The position numbers and the translations under genes are program-made. Shown in pieces: positions 2,988 through 39,937 of a DNA stretch of 39,937 nucleotides. How positions within the stretch are numbered: position 1 is the stretch's first letter; each line of letters starts with the position of its first letter. The DNA comes from a virus. Where the stretch lies: positions 1 through 39,937 of the IMG/VR virus record IMGVR_UViG_3300045243_000051; one strand, 5' to 3'. The notes beneath the pieces are model-generated. The model worked only from the letters and a program-made list of their open reading frames with translations. It ran no database searches and had not been told where the DNA came from.

Positions 2988-3175
2988 CAGCGCCACTCCC
3001 AGACATGGCCGGCGAGATAGATCCGCAAGCCCCACGGTCGGCGATAGAGCGACAGCGTGAACCCGCGCCCACCTTCATTGAGCACGAACAGAATGCCTGG
3101 GCGTGGCGCGGCCTGAAACAGCGGCAGCCGGCACGTCACCAACTCGCCGTTTATGAGCCAGCGCCGCATTAGCAT
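2987..3175 (-). CDS. Small hypothetical late protein (62 aa)
   Basis: A basic 62-residue protein rich in Trp, Arg and Leu, starting MLMRRWLINGELV. The ribosome-binding GGAG lies a few bases upstream of the ATG inside a perfect 7-bp inverted repeat (3177-3193), so translation may be sensitive to folding. It is the first gene downstream (in the late direction) of the endonuclease insertion at 3265-3804. Function unknown. Confidence 0.6.
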   Translation of the reverse strand: MLMRRWLINGELVTCRLPLFQAAPRPGILFVLNEGGRGFTLSLYRRPWGLRIYLAGHVWEWR

Positions 3176-3176
3176 G

Positions 3177-3193
3177 CACTCCGCAACGGAGTG
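3177..3193 (-). promoter_or_regulatory. Hairpin covering the ribosome-binding site of the 3175 gene
   Basis: CACTCCG (3177-3183) and CGGAGTG (3187-3193) are perfect inverted arms around a 3-base loop. In the minus-strand mRNA the GGAG of one arm is the likely ribosome-binding site for the ATG at 3175. A folded message would hide it. The hairpin lies between that gene and the endonuclease leader, so it may have arrived with the insertion. Confidence 0.4.
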
Positions 3194-3264
3194 TGGTATA
3201 AGCGGGACGCCATCGATGTATCAGCACCGATGGCGCCCCTGACCACTGGCTGCGTGAGGAACCA
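3194..3264 (+). promoter_or_regulatory. Endonuclease leader 1: extended -10 element, hairpin, TGACCA box
   Basis: An extended -10 like element (TG, one base, TATAAG at 3197-3202) is followed at once by a hairpin at 3204-3239. Eight inner pairs (CGCCATCG/CGATGGCG) and three outer GC pairs are separated by one mismatch, around a 12-nt loop. TGACCA follows (3240-3245) and the ATG begins 25 bases after the stem. Four other plus-strand endonuclease-type loci in this genome have the same layout with different stem sequences. Confidence 0.6.
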
Positions 3265-3804
3265 ATGGCTAGTCCAGACGATAGCAGAGAGAAGCAGCGG
3301 GCGTATCATCGTGAGTGGTATGCTGCGAATAAAGCAAAGATGCTCGCGTATCAGCGCGCGTGGTATGCCGCCAATCCAGAGAAAGCAAAAGAGAAAGCCC
3401 GTAAGAACCTCGCTCAAAAGCGACAGAACCCGCAGCTTCTTGCCTACAATGCCCACATTGGGAATGCCAGGCAACGCAACATCGCGTTCCTTCTGACATT
3501 TGAGGAATGGTGGGGCATCTGGGAAGCTAGCGGCAAGTGGGAGCAACGCGGTTACTATAGAGGCCAATACGTTATGGCTCGCAATGGAGATGTTGGGCCA
3601 TACGCAGTTGGTAACGTCAGGATTTGCACCAACGGGGAAAACAGCGCGGAAATGAACCGAAATAGCCGAGGTAAACCAGCCACAGATAAAGAGCTGGCTG
3701 CTATGGCTAAGGCGCGAGAAGCCCGATGGGCTCACGGGAGGACGATAAGCGATAGGCAACGCGCGGCGCTCGCAAAGGCACAAAAGGTCAGATGGGGAAA
3801 GTAA
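3265..3804 (+). CDS. Putative free-standing homing-type endonuclease or DNA-binding protein
   Basis: A 179-residue, Lys/Arg/Trp-rich protein starting MASPDDSREKQRAYHREWY. The N-terminal half has repeated YxxxWYAANxxK segments. The middle (FLLTFEEWWGIWEASGKW, GQYVMARNGD, GPYAVGNVRICT) resembles a family of short proteins scattered through phage genomes and often found as insertions. The C-terminus has NUMOD3-like basic helices (RQRAALAKAQKVRW). It lacks the HNH/AP2 layout of the other plus-strand inserts yet carries the same leader. It runs against late transcription and ends six bases from the stop of the convergent structural gene. GC is lower than in most neighbours. Nuclease activity is inferred, not shown. 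Confidence 0.6.
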   Translation: MASPDDSREKQRAYHREWYAANKAKMLAYQRAWYAANPEKAKEKARKNLAQKRQNPQLLAYNAHIGNARQRNIAFLLTFEEWWGIWEASGKWEQRGYYRGQYVMARNGDVGPYAVGNVRICTNGENSAEMNRNSRGKPATDKELAAMAKAREARWAHGRTISDRQRAALAKAQKVRWGK

Positions 3805-3809
3805 TGAGG

Positions 3810-5360
3810 TCATCTGCGGCCACCAGCCCGCATTTCTAGCCTGAGCCTACCAAGTGCGAACGGTCCATCGGCGGTAGCTTCGATTCGCATTCGTGTGGAC
3901 CGTCCACTGAAACGCACGTCCATGAGCCCGTTATGAACGACCGTGTATAATCCGGTGTCGAACTCGCTGGCGGCGTCGTACGGCTGTTCTCGGGGGAAGA
4001 AACGTGCGCCAAGTTGGTTATCAACGCTAGTGGTTGCATCCATAACTAACTGCTTGCAGTGGACGCGGCGATCACCTTCCGCGATTAGGATGTTTCCACT
4101 TTCAACGTAAACGTCGCCATTGGGGGCGCGCGGTACACCATTGTCGCTCCATCCCCACTCATGGAGGTAGAGGCACCCTCCACCAGCCGCAACACTACCG
4201 CCCAATATCGGGAAATCCATTGTGCCGCTTGGATCGGCAGCAGTGCGAGAACGGACACCTATAGTCCATGGGTGAGCTGGATCAGCATAATTAAAGACGA
4301 TATACCTATTGCATTCTAGCGAATCTTCATCGCACCAATCCCACCAGACCTCCCCGAAGCTAGGATTAGGCGAACCGAACAACCGCCCGGCCATGGTGCG
4401 ATTGACCAGTGAGAAGAACCAGTCCTGCACCGTGCAGGGCAGCGCCTGCACATTGCCGCTGTACGCCCAGAACGTCTGCAGCCCTGGCCACGCCACGAAC
4501 GAGCCGATGGCCACCACGGCGCGCGGCGAGAGCGGCCCGCAGCCCGAGGCGATCTGCACGATGCCGTAGGCGTAGGGCGCACCCACGTAGGTCATCTTGT
4601 GGACATCGTTGCCGGTAAAGATCAGCACCCCGTCAGACACCTTGATCGCGGTCATGGTATAGCTCTGCGTCTGCAGCAGTTTGCTGCCCGCGAGGTTGGT
4701 CACATCGGGCAGCCAAACGTCGGGGTTCTCCTGATCCGACCATGCGATGCTGCGCGGATCGCCCCCGGCGGCGAGCAGCACGACGTGGCGCTGATCCGTC
4801 ACCACTACGCCACGGCAGTTGGTGGGCGCGGCGGTCACCAGCGCCGGCAGCGTGGCGGGTGTGGTCGGCGTCCAACGATAAAGCCGCCCGTCCTGCGTCG
4901 GGACCACCAACAGATCCTCGCCGAACGTGTCCATCGCCCATCTGTCGCCCATGGTTGCGGCGATGTCCTGCGTGCCGATATCGGCGGCATCGCGTGAGGT
5001 GCCGTAGGCGTCGGCGCTGTAGTCACCCATACCGTAGCCAACCAGCGCGCCTGGCGGATCGAGCGGCCCGACGCCGGACGGAGTGATGTCGTAGAGCGTC
5101 TGCAGGTCGAAGCGATACGCGAACAGCTTGGTGTCGGTGCCGAACGCGGCCCATCGCACGCGGCTGTTGTCGTGCCAAGTCAGTAGATCACGCGGCAGAT
5201 CGGTGACGGTAGTGCCGGGCTGTGCGACGTTGCCGCCGATCGGCTGCAACTGCCCGCCGCGGAAGCGCACGTTGTTTGCGTCCCACCAATGTCCAGAGCT
5301 GGCCTCGGCCGTGGCGTTGCGCCAGACGCCTGGGGGCGGTGCCTGGGCAACGCGCGGCAT
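3810..5360 (-). CDS. P22 gp10-like packaged-DNA stabilisation / tail protein
   Basis: A 516-residue protein whose N-terminus (WWDANNVRFRGGQLQPIGG) matches the conserved opening of podovirus proteins that plug and stabilise the packaged DNA and form part of the short tail, as in P22 gp10. The body is rich in beta strands and Trp/Gly turns (TYVGAPYAYGIVQIASGCG), as expected of a propeller-like tail hub. The start ATG at 5360 directly follows the collar-protein stop. The last ~190 codons (3810 to about 4380) have roughly 55% GC against about 70% for the first part, so the C-terminal segment may come from a different lineage. Confidence 0.7.
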   Translation of the reverse strand: MPRVAQAPPPGVWRNATAEASSGHWWDANNVRFRGGQLQPIGGNVAQPGTTVTDLPRDLLTWHDNSRVRWAAFGTDTKLFAYRFDLQTLYDITPSGVGPLDPPGALVGYGMGDYSADAYGTSRDAADIGTQDIAATMGDRWAMDTFGEDLLVVPTQDGRLYRWTPTTPATLPALVTAAPTNCRGVVVTDQRHVVLLAAGGDPRSIAWSDQENPDVWLPDVTNLAGSKLLQTQSYTMTAIKVSDGVLIFTGNDVHKMTYVGAPYAYGIVQIASGCGPLSPRAVVAIGSFVAWPGLQTFWAYSGNVQALPCTVQDWFFSLVNRTMAGRLFGSPNPSFGEVWWDWCDEDSLECNRYIVFNYADPAHPWTIGVRSRTAADPSGTMDFPILGGSVAAGGGCLYLHEWGWSDNGVPRAPNGDVYVESGNILIAEGDRRVHCKQLVMDATTSVDNQLGARFFPREQPYDAASEFDTGLYTVVHNGLMDVRFSGRSTRMRIEATADGPFALGRLRLEMRAGGRR

Positions 5361-6421
5361 CAGTGCATGCCCCTCGCTGGTGCGGACAACAGCCGTGGCG
5401 AGCGTGCCGGGGCGAGGATCGCGCGCAGGGCGGCTAGTTCCTCGCGGATGGCGGTGAGTTCGTCGCGGCCCTCGATGGTCGGCGCGACCTCGCCCACGGC
5501 ATGCGTCACCGCCTGCTGACCGGCATAGATGATCTTAGTGATGACGAGAACGGGCTGCATCAGGCTGTACAGCGTGCCGCCGCCGCCGAGGTTGATAATG
5601 TGGGTGTGGCTGCCGTCGGGATTGATCGTGTGCGTATGATCGCCAACGACCGAGACATTATGCGCGTGGCTGCCGTCAAGCGTGATCTGATGGGCGTGCG
5701 AAGCGCTTTCGGTGCCGGTGGTGAAGTTGTGCTGATGCGCGCCATCAGTGCTGGTGACGGTATTGCCGCCTACCGAAAACGGCCCGGTACCAAGCGCCGC
5801 CGACCCTGTGGTGAAAAACCCGCCGACGGTGTGGTTGTGACTGCCCTGCGCATCGGTGACGCCGGAGTGGGTGTGCAGCGCGCTCTCGGTCAGCGTCGCT
5901 CCGCCATGGCTATGCTGGCCCTGCGCGTCGGTGGTGTGGCCGTGGCTGCCCGCCCCCACTGTAGCCCCACCGTGGCTGTGCGTGCCGGCCGCCGTTACCG
6001 ACAGCGCGTAGTTGGGCAGATGCGTCTGCAGGATCTGGTTCGACAGCCAGCCGAGCTGCTGCGCGAAAGTCAGCGACAGCGTGGTGCCGTTCGGGTCCGT
6101 GACGGTGCCAGGACCGACCAACGCGCGGCCCTTCAGGTTGGGCAGGGCGAATGTCGTGGAATTGTCACCGGCCCCCCAGTAGGTCTGGAGCACCGCGAAC
6201 AGGGCCGCATACGTCACACGCGAAATCAGACGGCCATCACATACCAACCAGCCAGGGGGCGGCGTCGGCCCGGCAAAGTCCAGAATGGCGCCGATCGGCG
6301 TGGACATACTGACGAACTGATCCAGTGCGCTGAAGTTCTGGTTTAGCAATGTCCCCCAAGTATCGCGATTAGCGCCGACTGTCGGCAGATTTAGGCCGAG
6401 GACTGGGGTAAAGTCTGCCAT
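5360..6421 (-). CDS. Phage tail collar domain protein / short tail fibre
   Basis: A 353-residue protein. Residues about 1-40 form a short N-terminal anchor (NLPTVGANRDTWGTLLNQNFSALDQF) very like that of the tailspike at 7585. Residues about 43-105 are a Phage Tail Collar domain (PIGAILDFAG, PPGWLVCDGR, TFALPNLKGRALVG). The region about 145-270 has many regularly spaced His-x-His pairs (THSHGG, SHGHTT, QHSHGG, ADGAHQHN), typical of metal-binding trimeric fibre tips such as T4 gp12. A coiled-coil-like tail (ELTAIREELAALRAIL) follows. It probably binds the cell surface. Confidence 0.85.
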   Translation of the reverse strand: MADFTPVLGLNLPTVGANRDTWGTLLNQNFSALDQFVSMSTPIGAILDFAGPTPPPGWLVCDGRLISRVTYAALFAVLQTYWGAGDNSTTFALPNLKGRALVGPGTVTDPNGTTLSLTFAQQLGWLSNQILQTHLPNYALSVTAAGTHSHGGATVGAGSHGHTTDAQGQHSHGGATLTESALHTHSGVTDAQGSHNHTVGGFFTTGSAALGTGPFSVGGNTVTSTDGAHQHNFTTGTESASHAHQITLDGSHAHNVSVVGDHTHTINPDGSHTHIINLGGGGTLYSLMQPVLVITKIIYAGQQAVTHAVGEVAPTIEGRDELTAIREELAALRAILAPARSPRLLSAPARGMH

Positions 6422-6739: not shown

Positions 6740-6756
6740 TTCGACTCCTTTTACGC

Positions 6757-6830
6757 TACAAGTCGGGGCGACATTGGTGCTGAAACACCATGCCGCCCCT
6801 AACCAGATGACCCTTATGCGGAGGATCAAA
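6757..6830 (+). promoter_or_regulatory. Endonuclease leader 2: hairpin and TAACCA box
   Basis: A TACAAG hexamer (6757-6762) precedes a hairpin at 6765-6799: GGGGCG/CGCCCC at the base and TGGTG/CACCA at the tip, a small internal loop between them and a 6-nt terminal loop. TAACCA follows, then an AGGA ribosome-binding site and the ATG 31 bases after the stem. An in-frame ATG occurs within the leader (6807), but the one at 6831 matches the other copies. Confidence 0.6.
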
Positions 6831-7373
6831 ATGGCTGAACGGAAACTGCCAGAAATCGGCCTTATTCGCGAGTGTGTTGACTACGATCCAGCCACCGGCG
6901 CCTTCACTTGGCGCGAACGCCCGGCGCACCATTTTTCTAGCCTTAGTGTTCAGAGGCGGTGGAACACCAGCTATGCTGGACAACCGGCGGGGACGACCAG
7001 CGACCGTTATGTTAGGTTTACGGTCAACGGCGGCGTGTTCTACGCCCACCGCATTGCATGGCTGCTGGTGTACGGTGCCCCGGTTCCTCAGTTTCTTGAT
7101 CATATCGACGGCGACAAACTGAACAACAGCATTGCCAATTTGCGGCCTGCGACAAAGGCGCAGAATTATATGAACTCGCGACCTCGCGCGAGCAAATCTG
7201 GCGTTACTGGCGTATTCCCTAAGCAGTACGCGCAAGGAATACGCTTCGCCGCTTTTATCAAACTTGCTGGGAAGCGCATCCATCTGGGACAATTTGCTAC
7301 GCTCGACGAAGCCACCAAGGCGCGGCGCGAAGCGGCCGACCGGCTGTTTGGCGAGTTCGCGCGACACAGCTAG
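6831..7373 (+). CDS. HNH endonuclease with AP2 DNA-binding domain
   Basis: A 180-residue free-standing homing-type endonuclease. The N-terminal block (KLPEIGLIREC-DYDPATGAFTWRER) is shared with its paralogues here. The HNH fold spans about residues 65-112, with His73 (YAHRIAW), the Asp-His pair at 90-91 (LDHIDGD) and the closing NSIANLRPAT. An AP2-type DNA-binding domain follows (about 121-175: SGVTGVF, AAFIKLAGKRIHLGQF, EATKARREAADRLFGEFA). It lies antisense between two late genes and ends six bases from the stop of the convergent gene. No intron features are visible around it. Confidence 0.9.
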   Translation: MAERKLPEIGLIRECVDYDPATGAFTWRERPAHHFSSLSVQRRWNTSYAGQPAGTTSDRYVRFTVNGGVFYAHRIAWLLVYGAPVPQFLDHIDGDKLNNSIANLRPATKAQNYMNSRPRASKSGVTGVFPKQYAQGIRFAAFIKLAGKRIHLGQFATLDEATKARREAADRLFGEFARHS

Positions 7374-12636: not shown

Positions 12637-12947
12637 CAGAGCGTACTCCTGTCATCAGTTCTGAACACGCAGTTGTCGGGGTCGTTGAGCCAGCGATTTA
12701 GCGCGGCCTCGTCCTTGGTGATTCCCAGGCGTTGCAGGTTCTGCCAGATCACCATCGGAATGCGCGCCACATGCACCGTGTCGCGCCGCACCAGCGGATC
12801 GAAGTTGGACGCGATCCGCTTGGCGCTCTCGACAATCGGCCGGGTGTTCTGCGAGTGGGTAAAGACCAACCCGGCCTCAGCGTCGGTATCGACCTCGGTG
12901 GCGCGCAGCGTTACCGGGTCGTAGTTGGAATAAAGCAGATTACTCAT
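12636..12947 (-). CDS. Conserved hypothetical protein next to the capsid gene (103 aa)
   Basis: Starts MSNLLYSNYDPVTLRATEVD. The segment IASNFDPLVRRDTVHVARIP followed by LQRLGITKDEAALNRWLNDP is a pattern I associate with small genes beside the SU10-type capsid gene in podoviruses. No function is known to me. The start at 12947 lies just left of the endonuclease leader, and longer frames would cross the leader hairpin. Confidence 0.7.
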   Translation of the reverse strand: MSNLLYSNYDPVTLRATEVDTDAEAGLVFTHSQNTRPIVESAKRIASNFDPLVRRDTVHVARIPMVIWQNLQRLGITKDEAALNRWLNDPDNCVFRTDDRSTL

Positions 12948-12958
12948 TGCACATACCG

Positions 12959-13030
12959 TGCTATAAGCGGGGCACTGTCGGCTCGCGAAAGCCGGCAGGC
13001 CCCTAACCAAGCACCTGTAAGGAGGTCGCT
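12959..13030 (+). promoter_or_regulatory. Endonuclease leader 3: extended -10 element, hairpin, TAACCA box
   Basis: TG, one base, TATAAG (-10 like hexamer at 12962-12967) is followed by a hairpin at 12969-13003 with GGGGC/GCCCC at the base, a TG/CA middle section and CGGCT/AGCCG at the tip. TAACCA follows at 13004, then a strong GGAGG site and ATG at 13031, 27 bases after the stem. The layout matches leaders 1, 2, 4 and 5, but the stem bases differ. Confidence 0.6.
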
Positions 13031-13588
13031 ATGGCTGCACGTAAATTGCCTGAACTCAGTTTCGTCCGCGAGTGCCTCGCCTATGATCCCGACACGGGGG
13101 ATTTTTTCTGGCGCGAGCGCCCCCTGGCACATTTCTTTAATGCGGCCAGTCAACACCGGATGAATATGAGAGACACCGGCAGGCGGGCTGGTTCTAAGCA
13201 TGATGCCGGCAGGTTCGGTGAGCGGATTTATTGGGGCATTCGGCTGGCCGGGGATTTCTACCCAGCCCACCGGCTCGCGTGGCTGCTGGTCTATGGTATC
13301 GATCCCGGTCCGCTGGAGATCGATCACATCAATGGAGATGGACTCGACAACCGAATTGCCAACCTGAGGCTGGCAACGAGAGGCGAGAACTCCTCCAACT
13401 CGCAGAGGCACTTCGATACGAGTAGCGGCATCAAAGGCGTCCAACGAAACGGCAGCGGCTACATGGCCCGCATTAAGGCGAACGGGAAAGTACACTATCT
13501 CGGGACCTTTCGGACGCTGGAAGCGGCCATAGAGGCACGCCGCAAGGCGGCTGACGTACTCCACGGAGTGTTTGTAAAGCACGAGTAG
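13031..13588 (+). CDS. HNH endonuclease with AP2 DNA-binding domain
   Basis: A 185-residue paralogue of the genes at 6831 and 32516. The N-terminal block KLPELSFVREC-AYDPDTGDFFWRERP is followed by the HNH fold (YPAHRLAWLLVYG, LEIDHINGDGLDNRIANLRLAT) and a C-terminal AP2 domain (SGIKGVQ, YMARIKANGKVHYLGTF, AIEARRKAADVLHGVF). It lies antisense between the 103-aa gene and the capsid gene, 35 bases from the capsid stop. Protein similarity to the other copies is clear but far from identity, so these are old or separately acquired copies. Confidence 0.9.
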   Translation: MAARKLPELSFVRECLAYDPDTGDFFWRERPLAHFFNAASQHRMNMRDTGRRAGSKHDAGRFGERIYWGIRLAGDFYPAHRLAWLLVYGIDPGPLEIDHINGDGLDNRIANLRLATRGENSSNSQRHFDTSSGIKGVQRNGSGYMARIKANGKVHYLGTFRTLEAAIEARRKAADVLHGVFVKHE

Positions 13589-13623
13589 TTGTGTATATTC
13601 CTACGCACGTTCGTTACGGCACG

Positions 13624-14607
13624 TCACTGGTTGAGGTCAAAAATTGTCGCGTGCGCCTTGGGAGCCGTGGGTCTGATGCACCCCTCATACACGACACCAC
13701 CTTGCGTGTTATCCCCGGTCGTAGCGTACGTTTGATCGACAAAGGATCTGCCCGACAGTGGCGCCATCTCGGCGTAGTCGGTGCTCACCAGGATAATCTG
13801 GTGCGCCGGCATAAAGCGGTCGGGAGCAAGCTGGATGGCACCGAAGTTGGTGCGATACACGTCCACCGCACCCTGAATCGTCACCTGCTCGCTCGACGTG
13901 ACGTTCTGGATGTTCTGCGCCACCACGGCGTTGCCGGTGCCGCCCTGCGACAGCGTGGCAAAGTAGGCTTTGACGTTGCCCGACATGATGCCCAGCGTCG
14001 GCTTGCCGCCGGCCTGCCAGCATTGCTGCATCGCACTATCGACCATCGCCAGCGTGAGATCGCGCGCCGTGCCGGCGGTACCAGCATTGGAGCCGTCGCC
14101 GATCGGCATCACGCCAGCGCCGGCGCCGCGGCTTCCGTTCACCGTGTAGCAGGGCAGCCCGGACATATGGCGCGGGTCGGTGATGGTGCGCACCAGCGGC
14201 GAGGTGATCGCCAGTTCCAGGTCGCGCTTGACCTCCATGCCACGCAGGATGAGTTGCCGGTTGTACTCGTCCTCGCCGCCGGCCATGTCGGCCGCACGCA
14301 GGGTGTTCGACACGCCCACCGTACGTGCCAGGATCTGGCATACGTTATTCAAACGCACCGGTTTGACCACCACCTGCATGACCGCCGTGAAGCCTTCCGG
14401 CTGGGCGTTGTCGGCGGCTTGATTGAGTTCCTGCACCAGAAATTCGGTGAGCACCTGCTGGGCGTCCACCGAGGGCAGCGCGGAATAGAGCGGGGTTTCG
14501 TCCGGGTCGATGCGCTCGATGATGTCGCGCAGATCTTCTTTCACGCCGATGGCGGCGGTCTCGATATACGTACCGGCGGGGGCTGCGCCTTGTGCTCCTA
14601 CGGCCAT
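13624..14607 (-). CDS. Major capsid protein (SU10 / DUF5309 family)
   Basis: A 327-residue protein matching the SU10-type major head protein: TYIETAAIGVKEDLRDIIERIDPDETPLYS at the N-terminus (given here as the conserved segment around residues 12-40), a central EVKRDLEL helix, and a C-terminal domain with MAPLSGRSFVDQTYATTGD. The ATG at 14607 is preferred over one seven codons upstream because GGAG lies seven bases before it. It is expected to form the HK97-fold head shell. A candidate promoter lies about 200 bases upstream (14808-14836), so it may have its own strong late promoter. Confidence 0.85.
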   Translation of the reverse strand: MAVGAQGAAPAGTYIETAAIGVKEDLRDIIERIDPDETPLYSALPSVDAQQVLTEFLVQELNQAADNAQPEGFTAVMQVVVKPVRLNNVCQILARTVGVSNTLRAADMAGGEDEYNRQLILRGMEVKRDLELAITSPLVRTITDPRHMSGLPCYTVNGSRGAGAGVMPIGDGSNAGTAGTARDLTLAMVDSAMQQCWQAGGKPTLGIMSGNVKAYFATLSQGGTGNAVVAQNIQNVTSSEQVTIQGAVDVYRTNFGAIQLAPDRFMPAHQIILVSTDYAEMAPLSGRSFVDQTYATTGDNTQGGVVYEGCIRPTAPKAHATIFDLNQ

Positions 14608-21083: not shown

Positions 21084-21089
21084 GTGCTA

Positions 21090-21161
21090 TGTTTCAAGCG
21101 GAGAACGGGGCGTTTGCCGCGCCACCGCTCTCCTCACCAATGACCTGTTATGGAGGATCAT
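21090..21161 (+). promoter_or_regulatory. Endonuclease leader 4 (of the truncated copy)
   Basis: TG, one base, TTCAAG (hexamer at 21093-21098) is followed by a hairpin at 21100-21133: GGAGA/TCTCC at the base, a mismatch and a bulge, then GGCG/CGCC around a 7-nt loop. TCACCA follows, then GGAGG and the GTG at 21162, 28 bases after the stem. The full layout of the intact copies is kept although the gene behind it is truncated. Confidence 0.55.
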
Positions 21162-21308
21162 GTGGCTCTCAGGAAACTGCCAGATCGCGCCCTCGTACGC
21201 GAGCTTCATCATGGCAGTGGGTCAGGTGCTGAAACAACAAGGTCTCATTTAAGCGGCGGCAGGGTTTCAGCGTGGCTCACGGGTCCAGCCGTGCATTCCG
21301 CCGCCTGA
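21150..21308 (+). pseudogene. Truncated HNH endonuclease remnant
   Basis: The first residues after the GTG at 21162 (VALRKLPDRALVRE) align with the N-terminus of the intact copy at 32516 (MALKTLPDREYVREC), at DNA level as well. After about 14 codons similarity stops and the frame runs into unrelated sequence to a stop at 21306-21308. An ATG at 21150 is in frame upstream. No HNH or AP2 motif remains. The 3' end overlaps the end of the convergent 91-aa gene. Confidence 0.6.
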
Positions 21309-31689: not shown

Positions 31690-31857
31690 ATGGCAACCCG
31701 CTATAACGTCGTGGTTGAACGCGAGGAATACGACGAGGCCACCGGCAAGGTGACCGGGCGTGCCGAATACCGCATCGACGCCTATGGCCTTCTGCAAGAG
31801 GCATGGGACACCACGCAGAAACAGGTCGAAAAGTTCGGCTGGTTCGATGACAGATGA
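31690..31857 (+). CDS. Small early protein (55 aa)
   Basis: Starts MATRYNVVVEREEYDEATGK. A compact, acidic protein (YRIDAYGLLQEAWDTTQKQV) with a beta-hairpin-like first half and a helical second half. It has no known family and lies 71 bases after the preceding gene, a gap in which I see nothing else. Confidence 0.55.
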   Translation: MATRYNVVVEREEYDEATGKVTGRAEYRIDAYGLLQEAWDTTQKQVEKFGWFDDR

Positions 31858-32350: not shown

Positions 32351-32441
32351 GCCGAGGCCGAGGATGGTTCGGTAAGGCGCCACCCTAGCACGTCACTGCT
32401 GGCGCGTCAGGCAAATCGGTTGCGGCGGTCGGTCTTTCTGG

Positions 32442-32515
32442 TAAGTTACCGGCGGAGAACGGCAGCGGTTGGACGCTGCCGCCTCCTGACCAATGACCCT
32501 GCATGAGAGGATCAG
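32442..32515 (+). promoter_or_regulatory. Endonuclease leader 5: hairpin and TGACCA box
   Basis: The hairpin at 32454-32486 has GGAG/CTCC at the base, a small internal loop and an 8-bp CGGCAGCG/CGCTGCCG tip with a 6-nt loop. TGACCA follows, then GAGAGGA and the ATG at 32516, 29 bases after the stem. The -10 like hexamer of copies 1 and 3 is not evident. Downstream of the stem the DNA is nearly the same as in leader 4. Confidence 0.6.
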
Positions 32516-33052
32516 ATGGCTCTCAAGACCCTGCCAGATCGTGAGTATGTGCGCGAGTGCCTGGATTACGACCCAGCGACTGGTATCTTTCGGTGGAAAG
32601 AAAGGCCGCTGGCTCACTTCCAAGATGCACGATCACACAGAGCCGCCAACACCCGGAGGACCGGCAATATCGCTGGAACCATCCTAGGCAATGGGTATTT
32701 AGGGATCAGGATCGACGGTGAAACCTACCGCGCCCATCGTCTGGCATTTCTTCTAGTGCATGGCGAACCGGTTCCCGACGAAATAGACCATCGTAATGGA
32801 GACCGCCTAGACAATTGGATCAACAACCTGCGAGAAGCCACCAGATCTTTGAACAACGCTAATGCCAAGACGCGCAAGAATAGCACTAGCGGTATCAAAG
32901 GTGTCTTTAGATTCCCGGACGGTAGATATAGAGCAAATATTTCACATGGCGGAAAGAACCATTATCTCGGGACATTCGATACCATTGAGCAAGCCGCTGC
33001 TGCACGGAACGAAGCTGCAGAACGGATTTACGGCGACTTCGCGCGTCACTGA
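32516..33052 (+). CDS. HNH endonuclease with AP2 DNA-binding domain
   Basis: A 178-residue paralogue of the genes at 6831 and 13031, starting MALKTLPDREYVRECLDYDP. The HNH fold has YRAHRLAFLLVHG and DEIDHRNGDRLDNWINNLRE; the AP2 domain has SGIKGVFRF, YRANISHGGKNHYLGTF and AAARNEAAERIYGDFA. It lies at the boundary between the early and late regions and overlaps the end of the leftward gene at 33046 by seven bases. It is the intact copy closest to the remnant at 21150. Confidence 0.9.
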   Translation: MALKTLPDREYVRECLDYDPATGIFRWKERPLAHFQDARSHRAANTRRTGNIAGTILGNGYLGIRIDGETYRAHRLAFLLVHGEPVPDEIDHRNGDRLDNWINNLREATRSLNNANAKTRKNSTSGIKGVFRFPDGRYRANISHGGKNHYLGTFDTIEQAAAARNEAAERIYGDFARH

Positions 33053-37822: not shown

Positions 37823-39937
37823 CACTTAGCATCCTTCGGCTGATAGATGCTCAATCGGCCATCCGGCCCCCGGAGTAATGATCCTGGCCGGGCATTGCCC
37901 TGCAACCATTGCTGTCGAGTAGGCGCATCCCAAGTCCCAAAACCGTCCGGCACCTTCGGCACGTAATCCGGCAGGTTCTGCTGCGCTGCGACCTTAGCCT
38001 TGCCCCATGACATACCCTTGCCGCCGTCCCATAGCTGCTCCACGGCGTCGGAATATTGCAACTTGCGATACTGCGCCTGCTCCAGATAGGCAATGATATC
38101 CGCGCGCGTTTGCGGGCTTTGCAGCAAGCTCGGCGCCATGTGCTGCAGGAACACCATATCCCGATCAGACAGTTGACCCATGCTGACGCCAGCACGCAGC
38201 CCGGTGACCGTCTTATTAACGGCAGCCTCGAATGCCTGCTGAGCGCCCCATTTCTTTTGTGCCGCTTCAGTGCCGAGGTTCCACTGCACCATGAAATCGC
38301 GCCCGGATTTGTCACCGACCCGGATGTTTTCCAGTGGCGTCGAGGTGCCAGCCGCCTGCGAGAGCGCGGACAACATTTGGAGGTCATCGATGTTGGATCG
38401 TGCCGAGTCACGCTCCTGGCCAAACCGTTTACGCTCATCGAGCACGTAGCTGTTCTCAGAGGCCGCTGCACCAGTTTGACGAGCCTCCTCACCCTTTGCT
38501 CGCTCAAGCGCGAGGGCGTTGGCCTGCGCCGTTTGAGCGTCCTGATTCTTGTAAAACGCATCGACGGCCAGCTTGTGGATATCCTGCTGCTGCTTAAAGT
38601 CGGCGCTGTACCAGTCCGTAAGTTGCTTAGCCCCGGCGTCCGTCCGCCCGGTGCGTGCCGTCAGTTCCTTGTCCAGCGTCGCCTGCAGCGTCGCCTCGGC
38701 CTGCGCGCGCGCCTCGGCAGCCTTCGCGGCATCAGGGATCAGCGAGGCGGCACGGATCGCCACGGCATAGGAGTTGCGGGCGTCCTGCACCACCGACTGC
38801 TCGGCCCCCGTCAGATCGCCGCCCTGGATCGTACCGGGTGGCGGTGGACGCGGGACATAGGTGAACTCCGGCGGCCCTGCAGGAGCGGTGGGCGCAGGTG
38901 GCGTTACCGTTCCCCCGGCCGGCGGTAGCGACTGCGCCTGTGCCGTTTGCACCGGCGTATTGGCAATGCTCGCCGGCGTGGTCACTCCTGCCCCCGGCCC
39001 GGTCGGCGGCAGTGGTCGTGGCCCCGTCAGATCCGTCGTAGGTGCGGGCGGGCTGCCAGTCGGCACACCCGGCCCGGCGGTCTGTACTGTCCCCGGCGCT
39101 GCCGTCTTGTGCGGCAACTCGAAGTGCATCGGATCACGGGTTTTGCCGGTCCAGTCACCGCCCCAGACCAACCCGTGTTTCGCGGCCAGCGAGCGTGCGA
39201 GGTCGGGTGGGATATCGGAGACGCTGCCACCCTGCGGGTTGCGCGCCGAGTTGATGTCGATGGCGTCGCCATAGGCGTGCTCGGAAGGAACCTGCGTGCC
39301 GGCAATAAACCGCTTGTTGTAGCCACCGGAAGTTGAAGGGTCGATCTTGTAGCCGGCCGCCTCCAGGTCGCTGACCAGCCCCTGGAACTTCTCCGCGGCG
39401 GTGGCTGCGACCTGGAACTTCGCACCACCAGGCGCAGCAACTGTCGTGAGTTCGGGTGGCGAGGGTAAGCCGCCCAACAATGGATTACCGCCAGTCGGCT
39501 GTCCGGCGATGCTGCCGCCCGTGGCGATGTTAGGAGTCGTGCCAGCACCGATTGCCGGCGGCAACGCACCCAGCGCACCGAGGCGCTGCTGGCTCTGTTG
39601 CAGCGACAGCAACGGGATTGCCTCCTTGATGGCGGCAATCCGCAGCTCCTGCTGCTTCTGCGCATACTCCTGCTGTGCGGCGAGCGTGGACGCATCGAAC
39701 TGCTGCGCGCCGAGCGCGCCTCGCTCCGCACCCTCGAACCCTGCCCCAAGCAGCGAGCCGATCGTGCCGCCCTGCATATGGCCGACCGCGCCCAGCATCC
39801 CCAAACCGAAATGCCGCAGTGCCATCAAACCCGACGCCTGCCGCTCGGCCGGCGTCATATTCGGCATCATCACCGGGCCGCCCAACGCCTCGCCGAGTTT
39901 CGACCGCCAGTCCTGCTCTACCGGCGTCATGTCCCGC
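37822..39937 (-). CDS. Large virion protein with M15-type peptidase domain (continues at 1-241)
   Basis: The full protein is 739 residues across the circular junction. After a helical N-terminus and a linker, residues about 208-309 are an M15 (VanY/Ala-D-Glu-peptidase-like) domain: SEHAYGDAIDIN with His255 and the Asp of GDAIDI, then GLVWGGDW and PMHFEL with His306. These are the zinc ligands of that family. A long Pro/Thr-rich linker and a ~350-residue helical C-terminus (ARNSYAVAIRAASLIPDAAK, LDEARKRFGQ-type coiled parts) follow. It most likely cuts peptidoglycan locally during DNA entry. It is the only wall-degrading domain recognised in the genome, so it may also be the only candidate for lysis. 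Confidence 0.8.
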   Translation of the reverse strand, partial: RDMTPVEQDWRSKLGEALGGPVMMPNMTPAERQASGLMALRHFGLGMLGAVGHMQGGTIGSLLGAGFEGAERGALGAQQFDASTLAAQQEYAQKQQELRIAAIKEAIPLLSLQQSQQRLGALGALPPAIGAGTTPNIATGGSIAGQPTGGNPLLGGLPSPPELTTVAAPGGAKFQVAATAAEKFQGLVSDLEAAGYKIDPSTSGGYNKRFIAGTQVPSEHAYGDAIDINSARNPQGGSVSDIPPDLARSLAAKHGLVWGGDWTGKTRDPMHFELPHKTAAPGTVQTAGPGVPTGSPPAPTTDLTGPRPLPPTGPGAGVTTPASIANTPVQTAQAQSLPPAGGTVTPPAPTAPAGPPEFTYVPRPPPPGTIQGGDLTGAEQSVVQDARNSYAVAIRAASLIPDAAKAAEARAQAEATLQATLDKELTARTGRTDAGAKQLTDWYSADFKQQQDIHKLAVDAFYKNQDAQTAQANALALERAKGEEARQTGAAASENSYVLDERKRFGQERDSARSNIDDLQMLSALSQAAGTSTPLENIRVGDKSGRDFMVQWNLGTEAAQKKWGAQQAFEAAVNKTVTGLRAGVSMGQLSDRDMVFLQHMAPSLLQSPQTRADIIAYLEQAQYRKLQYSDAVEQLWDGGKGMSWGKAKVAAQQNLPDYVPKVPDGFGTWDAPTRQQWLQGNARPGSLLRGPDGRLSIYQPKDAK
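39801..39937. repeat. Terminal duplication marking circular closure (right copy)
   Basis: Repeat of bases 1-137 with one difference (A at 39811, C at 11). See the left copy. Confidence 0.9.

Follow-up and report, generated by a model that had tools for sequence, protein, structure and literature searches.

The open reading frame (ORF) starting at position 3265 of the window (the whole stretch of 39,937 bases that was analyzed) is preceded by a leader comprising an extended -10 element, a GC-rich hairpin, a TNACCA motif and a second hairpin around the Shine-Dalgarno (SD) sequence and the start codon. By sequence comparison across viral contigs, this leader is common to at least six unrelated nuclease families, and we consider it likely that it represents a portable module for the expression of free-standing, homing-type nuclease genes in phages. 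A prior sequence-only reading of the window had claimed that the leader of its other nuclease genes also stands before a different protein family; this is confirmed for 3194-3264, with unrelated families behind the leader both here and in many other phages.

Architecture of the leader and its copies in the window

R1, a covariance model made from 12 leaders that partly comprise the window's own five, recovers exactly five leaders in the window (54-71 bits, E 1e-16 to 4e-12; Table 1), the match for the leader of the 3265 gene spanning 3191-3267. Only one other match has E < 10 (16.8 bits), and it falls on the reverse strand of the hairpin in the 3265 leader itself; the R1 search of the whole window found no leader before the structural genes. 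The parts shared by the five copies are the extended -10 element (TGnTATAAG and variants), the GC-rich hairpin 1, closed by GGGG/GGAG and CCCC/CTCC, the TNACCA motif, an SD and usually an ATGGCT start. The expectation of an identical set of elements at 3265 is thus borne out for the -10 element and the hairpin, but neither for TGACCA, which stands before the 3265 and 32516 genes and gives way to TAACCA before 6831 and 13031 and to TCACCA before 21162, nor for a constant spacing, with 19 to 25 nt separating ACCA from the start codon.

Table 1. Leader elements, downstream ORFs and the capsid-site insert in the window
Feature	Positions	Strand	Basis or remark
Inverted repeat CACTCCG-CAA-CGGAGTG	3177..3193	+	Directly 5' of the -10; sequence
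Extended -10 element TG-G-TATAAG	3194..3202	+	Sequence; enrichment over leaders
Hairpin 1 (GGG, A.C mismatch, 8-bp upper stem, CCC)	3204..3239	+	Folding; arm-swap test
TNACCA motif (here TGACCA)	3240..3245	+	Gene-exchange breakpoints at its ACC (3244, 13008)
Hairpin 2, ACTGGCTG (3245-3252) pairing with TGGCTAGT (3266-3273)	3245..3273	+	Covers the start codon; SD in the loop
SD GAGGAA	3256..3261	+	Sequence
179-aa ORF, phrog_16521, starting ATGGCT	3265..3804	+	Family match; predicted fold
Leader of HNH/AP2 gene 6831	6751..6830	+	R1 match 6751-6833, 70.9 bits
HNH_3/AP2 nuclease ORF, 180 aa	6831..7373	+	Pfam
Whole insert, leader and HNH/AP2 gene	12927..13625	+	Between the major capsid gene and the next gene; near-identical phages empty
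Leader of HNH/AP2 gene 13031	12956..13030	+	R1 match 12956-13033
HNH_3/AP2 nuclease ORF, 185 aa	13031..13588	+	Pfam
Leader of decayed HNH/AP2 gene (GTG at 21162)	21087..21161	+	R1 match 21087-21164
Leader of HNH/AP2 gene 32516	32441..32515	+	R1 match 32441-32518, 53.9 bits
HNH_3/AP2 nuclease ORF, 178 aa	32516..33052	+	Pfam

Genes 6831, 13031 and 32516 encode HNH_3 (PF13392) proteins, one of them with a sub-threshold AP2 match. The stretch 21162-21308 is a pseudogene in which roughly 12 codons of an HNH/AP2 gene remain behind the leader, the others having been lost by deletion; an alignment places an intact version with an identical leader in the related record G042 (L242, L264). Rfam gave no match at the gathering threshold in the window or in four leader loci, and a tRNA gene search found none. 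The left arm of the inverted repeat at 3177-3193 reads GGAG on the minus strand, 5' of a divergent ORF starting at 3175, and comparable inverted repeats precede the -10 in other leader copies, one of them at ~12947-12962; these two abut the start of a divergent phage gene, as if the insert supplied the ribosome-binding site (RBS) of the gene it had separated. The first and last 137 bases of the record (1-137 and 39801-39937) share 99% identity, which would suit a phage assembly that is circular or terminally redundant.

TATAAT is matched at five or six of its six positions in 29 of 46 non-redundant leaders versus 1.6% of random windows, and TGn precedes the hexamer in 54% of these 46 versus 7% at random. 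A consensus -35 is mostly missing, with TTGACA present upstream of the leader in L277, L280 and L287, and a simple promoter scan gave no sigma-70 match at 3265. We infer promoter activity for the -10 element; given its position, transcription of copies of the TATAAG type may begin within the 5' arm of hairpin 1.

In hairpin 1, both sides vary in 11 of 15 pairs of the 12-leader alignment. When its arms are swapped between 58 leaders the mean energy goes from a native -21.9 to -15.1 kcal/mol, a mean cost of 6.8 kcal/mol, with none of 2000 permutations being as good as the native combination. In hairpin 2, the ACC(A) of TNACCA pairs in many copies with the UGG of AUGGCU (in L016, ACAU pairs with AUGU), and the inner stem carries the SD in its 3' arm or in its loop, the SD being paired in many copies and left in the loop in several others. 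Hairpin 2 is only moderately stable (-5 to -13 kcal/mol); its arm-swap test yields p = 2e-4 over 42 non-redundant leaders and was not significant on a smaller set of non-AUGGC starts alone. These comparisons of aligned leaders show that base pairing in the leader hairpins is under selection.

Hairpin 1 further displays a strand asymmetry: the more stable fold is that of the minus-strand RNA in 47 of the 58 leaders, and A.C mismatches on the plus strand (G.U on the other) stand to G.U pairs as 55:13, against 1.94:1 in arm-swapped controls, with p ~0.05 once calibrated for base composition. Strong selection on the antisense RNA was considered and rejected, as the hairpin 2 count and the arm-swapped controls point to base composition explaining much of the A.C excess; hence, we count the asymmetry only as suggestive of a service to the antisense RNA. 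An intrinsic terminator was also rejected, scans of either strand having returned no terminator-like match at the leader. At the capsid site of another phage (L173), an endonuclease VII insert has a leader without hairpin 1 (TATAAACGCTGATG), a natural deletion.

Genes behind the leader, their insertion and their exchange

Since R1 was trained partly on the window's copies, independent support comes from a leader-only DNA pattern built with no protein reference. It matched 20 viral loci and a nuclease-type ORF (endonuclease VII-like, HNH/AP2, Cys-type HNH or HNH_3) lies shortly downstream in 19 of them. Two full-length endonuclease VII-like ORFs that were tested match PF02945 with E of about 1e-15 to 1e-17. 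The sequence-deduplicated catalogue of R1 matches holds ~26 endonuclease VII genes, 19 members of the 179-aa family, 20 HNH/AP2 genes, 3-4 other HNH_3 genes and 2 Cys-type HNH genes, counts that are not independent, as the loci come from few metagenome projects and related phages. Further patterns placed a DRID-type HNH (phrog_3377, 6e-41), a Pfam HNH and a probable GIY-YIG (phrog_314 'homing endonuclease', 2e-9; Pfam just 0.07) behind the leader. It also precedes HNH/AP2 relatives of ~40% identity in the unrelated contigs L008, L009, L016 and L020, the last being the cultured Rhizobium phage RHph_Y1_10, in which it stands before an HNH gene at 31826.

Few users fall outside the nucleases. The clearest is a KilAC/Rha antirepressor with a two-hairpin leader in L280 and L287 (the latter from Komagataeibacter nataicola, NZ_NIRT01000030, where the leader lies at locus position 5652), and a 147-aa ORF without a known family in L277 (leader 3957-4023) is also clear; a weaker case is a leader-like sequence (24.9 bits) before a 70-aa ORF without a known family (L260/G031:8781-8855). 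Two leaders compared directly with named phages by blastn gave no match. By capsid, the closest named relatives of the window phage are 30-38% identical, and a capsid protein search of bacterial genomes returned no relative.

The 179-aa protein belongs to phrog_16521 (unknown function) and has no Pfam or NCBIfam match, hence none to curated HNH families. Its PHROG HNH matches are weak, it has no clear sequence similarity to the window's three HNH/AP2 proteins, and a sequence search of solved structures with its family gave only chance calcium-channel matches. Profile comparisons of the family with HNH/AP2 and DRID-type HNH are also weak, yet the core aligns. Behind an N-terminus of helical YxxxWYAANxEK repeats, an AlphaFold2 model (pLDDT 90) has strands at 102-106 and 118-122 and a helix at 123-134; the best solved structure is the PacI HNH (VIA Z 6.3), and other HNH/colicin DNases are among the matches, none with a significant Foldseek E-value. 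The invariant columns of 40 family members include no catalytic His at the end of strand 1, where it is expected; this position is the invariant R106, as in DRID-type HNH-like proteins. From the HNH-like predicted core (~102-134) together with R106, we regard the protein as a probable, though degenerate, nuclease of the HNH (beta-beta-alpha) type; thus, the families behind the leader are unlike in sequence yet probably do the same job. Repeats like YxxxWYAAN-EK are common to the N-termini of endonuclease VII-like, Cys-type HNH and 179-aa proteins with differing cores (window 3265, L026, L029, L031, L163), and may be an exchanged DNA-binding part.

The insertion of leader and gene is seen next to the major capsid gene. 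In 75 relatives this site is empty in 41 and occupied in 34, a presence/absence polymorphism, and four empty-site phages with flanks 90-97% identical to the window delimit the insert, which includes the first codons of the next gene. As these near-identical empty sites have neither leader nor gene, the two constitute one insert. The occupants in relatives (including L026-L045) are endonuclease VII, HNH/AP2, HNH_3 and a Cys-type HNH remnant. Composite inserts were also observed there (L030/L041, L168), in which the leader is followed by a shortened endonuclease VII ORF of 64-76 aa and then an HNH_3 ORF.

Occupants change behind a leader that stays. Over 702 bp ending at 13008, where CCCCTAACC ends, L164 matches the window at 98% identity, after which it has an endonuclease VII gene in place of the HNH/AP2 gene; the 48-nt core of the window's 13031 leader is identical to that of the endonuclease VII leader in L163/L164. 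Another 48-nt promoter/hairpin core recurs without change in front of genes of three families, namely endonuclease VII, Cys-type HNH and HNH/AP2. Likewise, L086 is 100% identical to window positions 3170-3244 and then encodes a 179-aa family member of only ~45% identity. The promoter and hairpin 1 hence stay 98-100% identical where the gene behind them changes, and at two sites, where identity ends at 13008 and 3244, the breakpoint lies between the two hairpins. On these alignments, the leader is made up of two half-modules, one comprising the promoter, hairpin 1 and TNACC and the other hairpin 2/RBS together with the gene, with the junction between them; the same alignments show insertion as a unit and gene replacement behind the leader.

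The gene exchange bears out the idea that the leader is separable from the gene it drives, though not that it spreads independently: it was never seen moving alone, and empty sites lack both. The view that the 3265 gene lies outside the HNH/AP2 group stands as regards Pfam and sequence similarity and fails as regards its probable hidden HNH-like core. Two outcomes had been named as counting against the sequence-only reading, namely homologues that never carry the leader and a hidden HNH/AP2 fold; an HNH-like one is probably present, whereas about 20 loci have the leader directly before the start codon among the 80 viral sequences most closely related to the 179-aa protein. An RNA model search found none near its named T4-like relatives. 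The proposed search before other gene families was productive, with endonuclease VII, other HNH, probable GIY-YIG, KilAC and the 147-aa gene.

The leader is also biased in orientation. Among loci of the 179-aa family at which homology to window genes gave the direction of the neighbors, the leader is present on 18 and absent from 10 antisense copies (relative to the phage operon), and present on 0 and absent from 15 sense copies (Fisher p = 4e-5, for loci that are not independent). Seven of the ten leaderless antisense copies are one repeated sequence and at least two are cut by contig ends; still, as such copies exist, the leader is not strictly needed. At the capsid site, nearly all antisense inserts have the leader or its remains, and six sense HNH_3 inserts have no leader match. 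These counts over aligned loci show the bias, and it fits a leader that brings a promoter to where the operon's own transcript is useless.

Proposed action and competing explanations

We advance the following mechanism for the leader as a portable expression module. The extended -10 would start a transcript at or just inside hairpin 1, which would form the 5' end of the mRNA, while hairpin 2, by enclosing the SD and/or the start codon, would limit or time translation. With a promoter of its own, a nuclease that has landed antisense in a phage operon would be expressed, and sense copies could do without one. Because the promoter and hairpin 1, a block of ~50-60 bp, are common to all cassettes, recombination behind this block would replace a nuclease and its own hairpin 2 with an unrelated pair, the leader staying as a platform. 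Translational control, homing and homologous recombination as the route of exchange are what we infer here from sequence. More tentatively, the leader might be viewed as a 'socket' for selfish genes: a block common to unrelated homing nucleases (HNH, endonuclease VII, degenerate HNH and probable GIY-YIG) and borrowed by a few other genes, which could act both as an autonomous switch for antisense insertions and as a homology block for the displacement of one selfish nuclease by another at an occupied site, resulting in a site-bound succession of competitors.

Other explanations account for parts of these observations. Hairpin 1 could act mainly in the opposite RNA, insulating or processing the late mRNA of the interrupted operon and shielding the start of the next gene, the leader then serving to render the insertion harmless and not to express the nuclease. 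The mostly antisense inserts, the hairpin's place just 5' of the next phage gene, the more stable minus-strand fold and the A.C excess all agree with this, but we hold it to be unlikely: the calibrated asymmetry is marginal, scans found no terminator-like T run at the leader, the leader follows the orientation of the nuclease even where the neighbors run the same way (L016), and the promoter and hairpin 2 are left unexplained. Quite improbable, in our estimate, is that hairpin 1 and TNACC form a site at the DNA level (a target, an end or a recombination site, comparable to single-strand transposon ends or integron attC) with expression being secondary. While the exchange breakpoints do fall at the 3' edge of hairpin 1/TNACC and the stem is conserved in shape rather than sequence, the shared sequence by itself accounts for the breakpoints, a single DNA-recognition role is hard to see for unrelated nuclease families, and an incidental look noticed no partner hairpin at the 3' end of the insert. 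The attC-like version was set aside, as the hairpin lies 5' of the gene and is kept when the gene is exchanged.

That the leader is a resident phage regulatory sequence, beside which nucleases merely insert, might be read from its persistence while the gene changes at one site and from the few non-nuclease users (L280/L287, L277). We judge this very improbable, because near-identical phages with empty sites lack the leader, on which ground a resident promoter was rejected, because it is absent before the window's structural genes, and because it occurs, pointing into a nuclease, in phages that share no backbone. Least credible of all is chance or convergence, whereby any strong promoter with a GC-rich hairpin and an SD would look alike. 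The bottom stem is indeed simple G/C sequence; however, patterns of ~20 fixed bases match nuclease starts nearly every time in viral contigs, one pattern has only two matches in 257 billion bases of bacterial genomes, and identical 48-nt cores precede different families.

Significance and comparison with known systems

The usual practice is to sort homing endonuclease genes according to nuclease fold and to study them site by site. The leader, being common across folds, suggests instead that they belong to a single exchange community in which an expression part is shared. It offers a sequence handle for phage nucleases outside known protein families, and searching with it brought out many 179-aa family members as well as other uncatalogued ORFs. 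Further, it yields testable predictions on how an antisense-landed selfish gene is expressed and how one such gene replaces another.

Text searches of the literature, with most subscription papers outside their scope, found no such leader. Homing-type genes of many classes have been reported at phage genetic exchange boundaries (PMC10448857), a paper in which the words promoter, hairpin and untranslated are absent. Many leader-driven genes share the PF02945 endonuclease VII core with the endo VII-motif homing endonucleases (DHHRN family, F-CphI; PMC6083498), of which F-CphI is group I intron-associated; in the passages searched, neither that paper, on endonuclease VII-type homing enzymes, nor PMC12724721, on skunavirus HNH genes, mentions such a leader. 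A title cited in the latter has SegH and Hef replacing mobC and mobE; as far as that title goes, it is a like case of different homing genes at the same locus in related phages, from which the present exchange differs in leaving the promoter/hairpin upstream in place as a mark of the breakpoint.

The closest parallels are the T4-type homing endonuclease genes I-TevI, I-TevII, I-TevIII, segB and Aeh1 mobE, with their RBS-sequestering hairpins (PMC2988022). Like these, the genes described here have structured RNA about the RBS of a phage homing-type gene and, nearby, a promoter of their own, which in the present case is putative. However, the transcript of the T4-type proximal promoter is without the inhibitory structure (PMC2988022), whereas here both hairpins are downstream of the -10, so that the transcript would contain hairpin 2. 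Hairpin 1, in turn, resembles the very stable hairpin just 5' of the RBS of seg43(25) in Aeromonas phage 25, into which the RBS is not taken up, a single case for which no shared promoter block or second hairpin is described (PMC2988022). Finally, while that work treats the hairpins gene by gene, here one leader type extends across at least six unrelated families.
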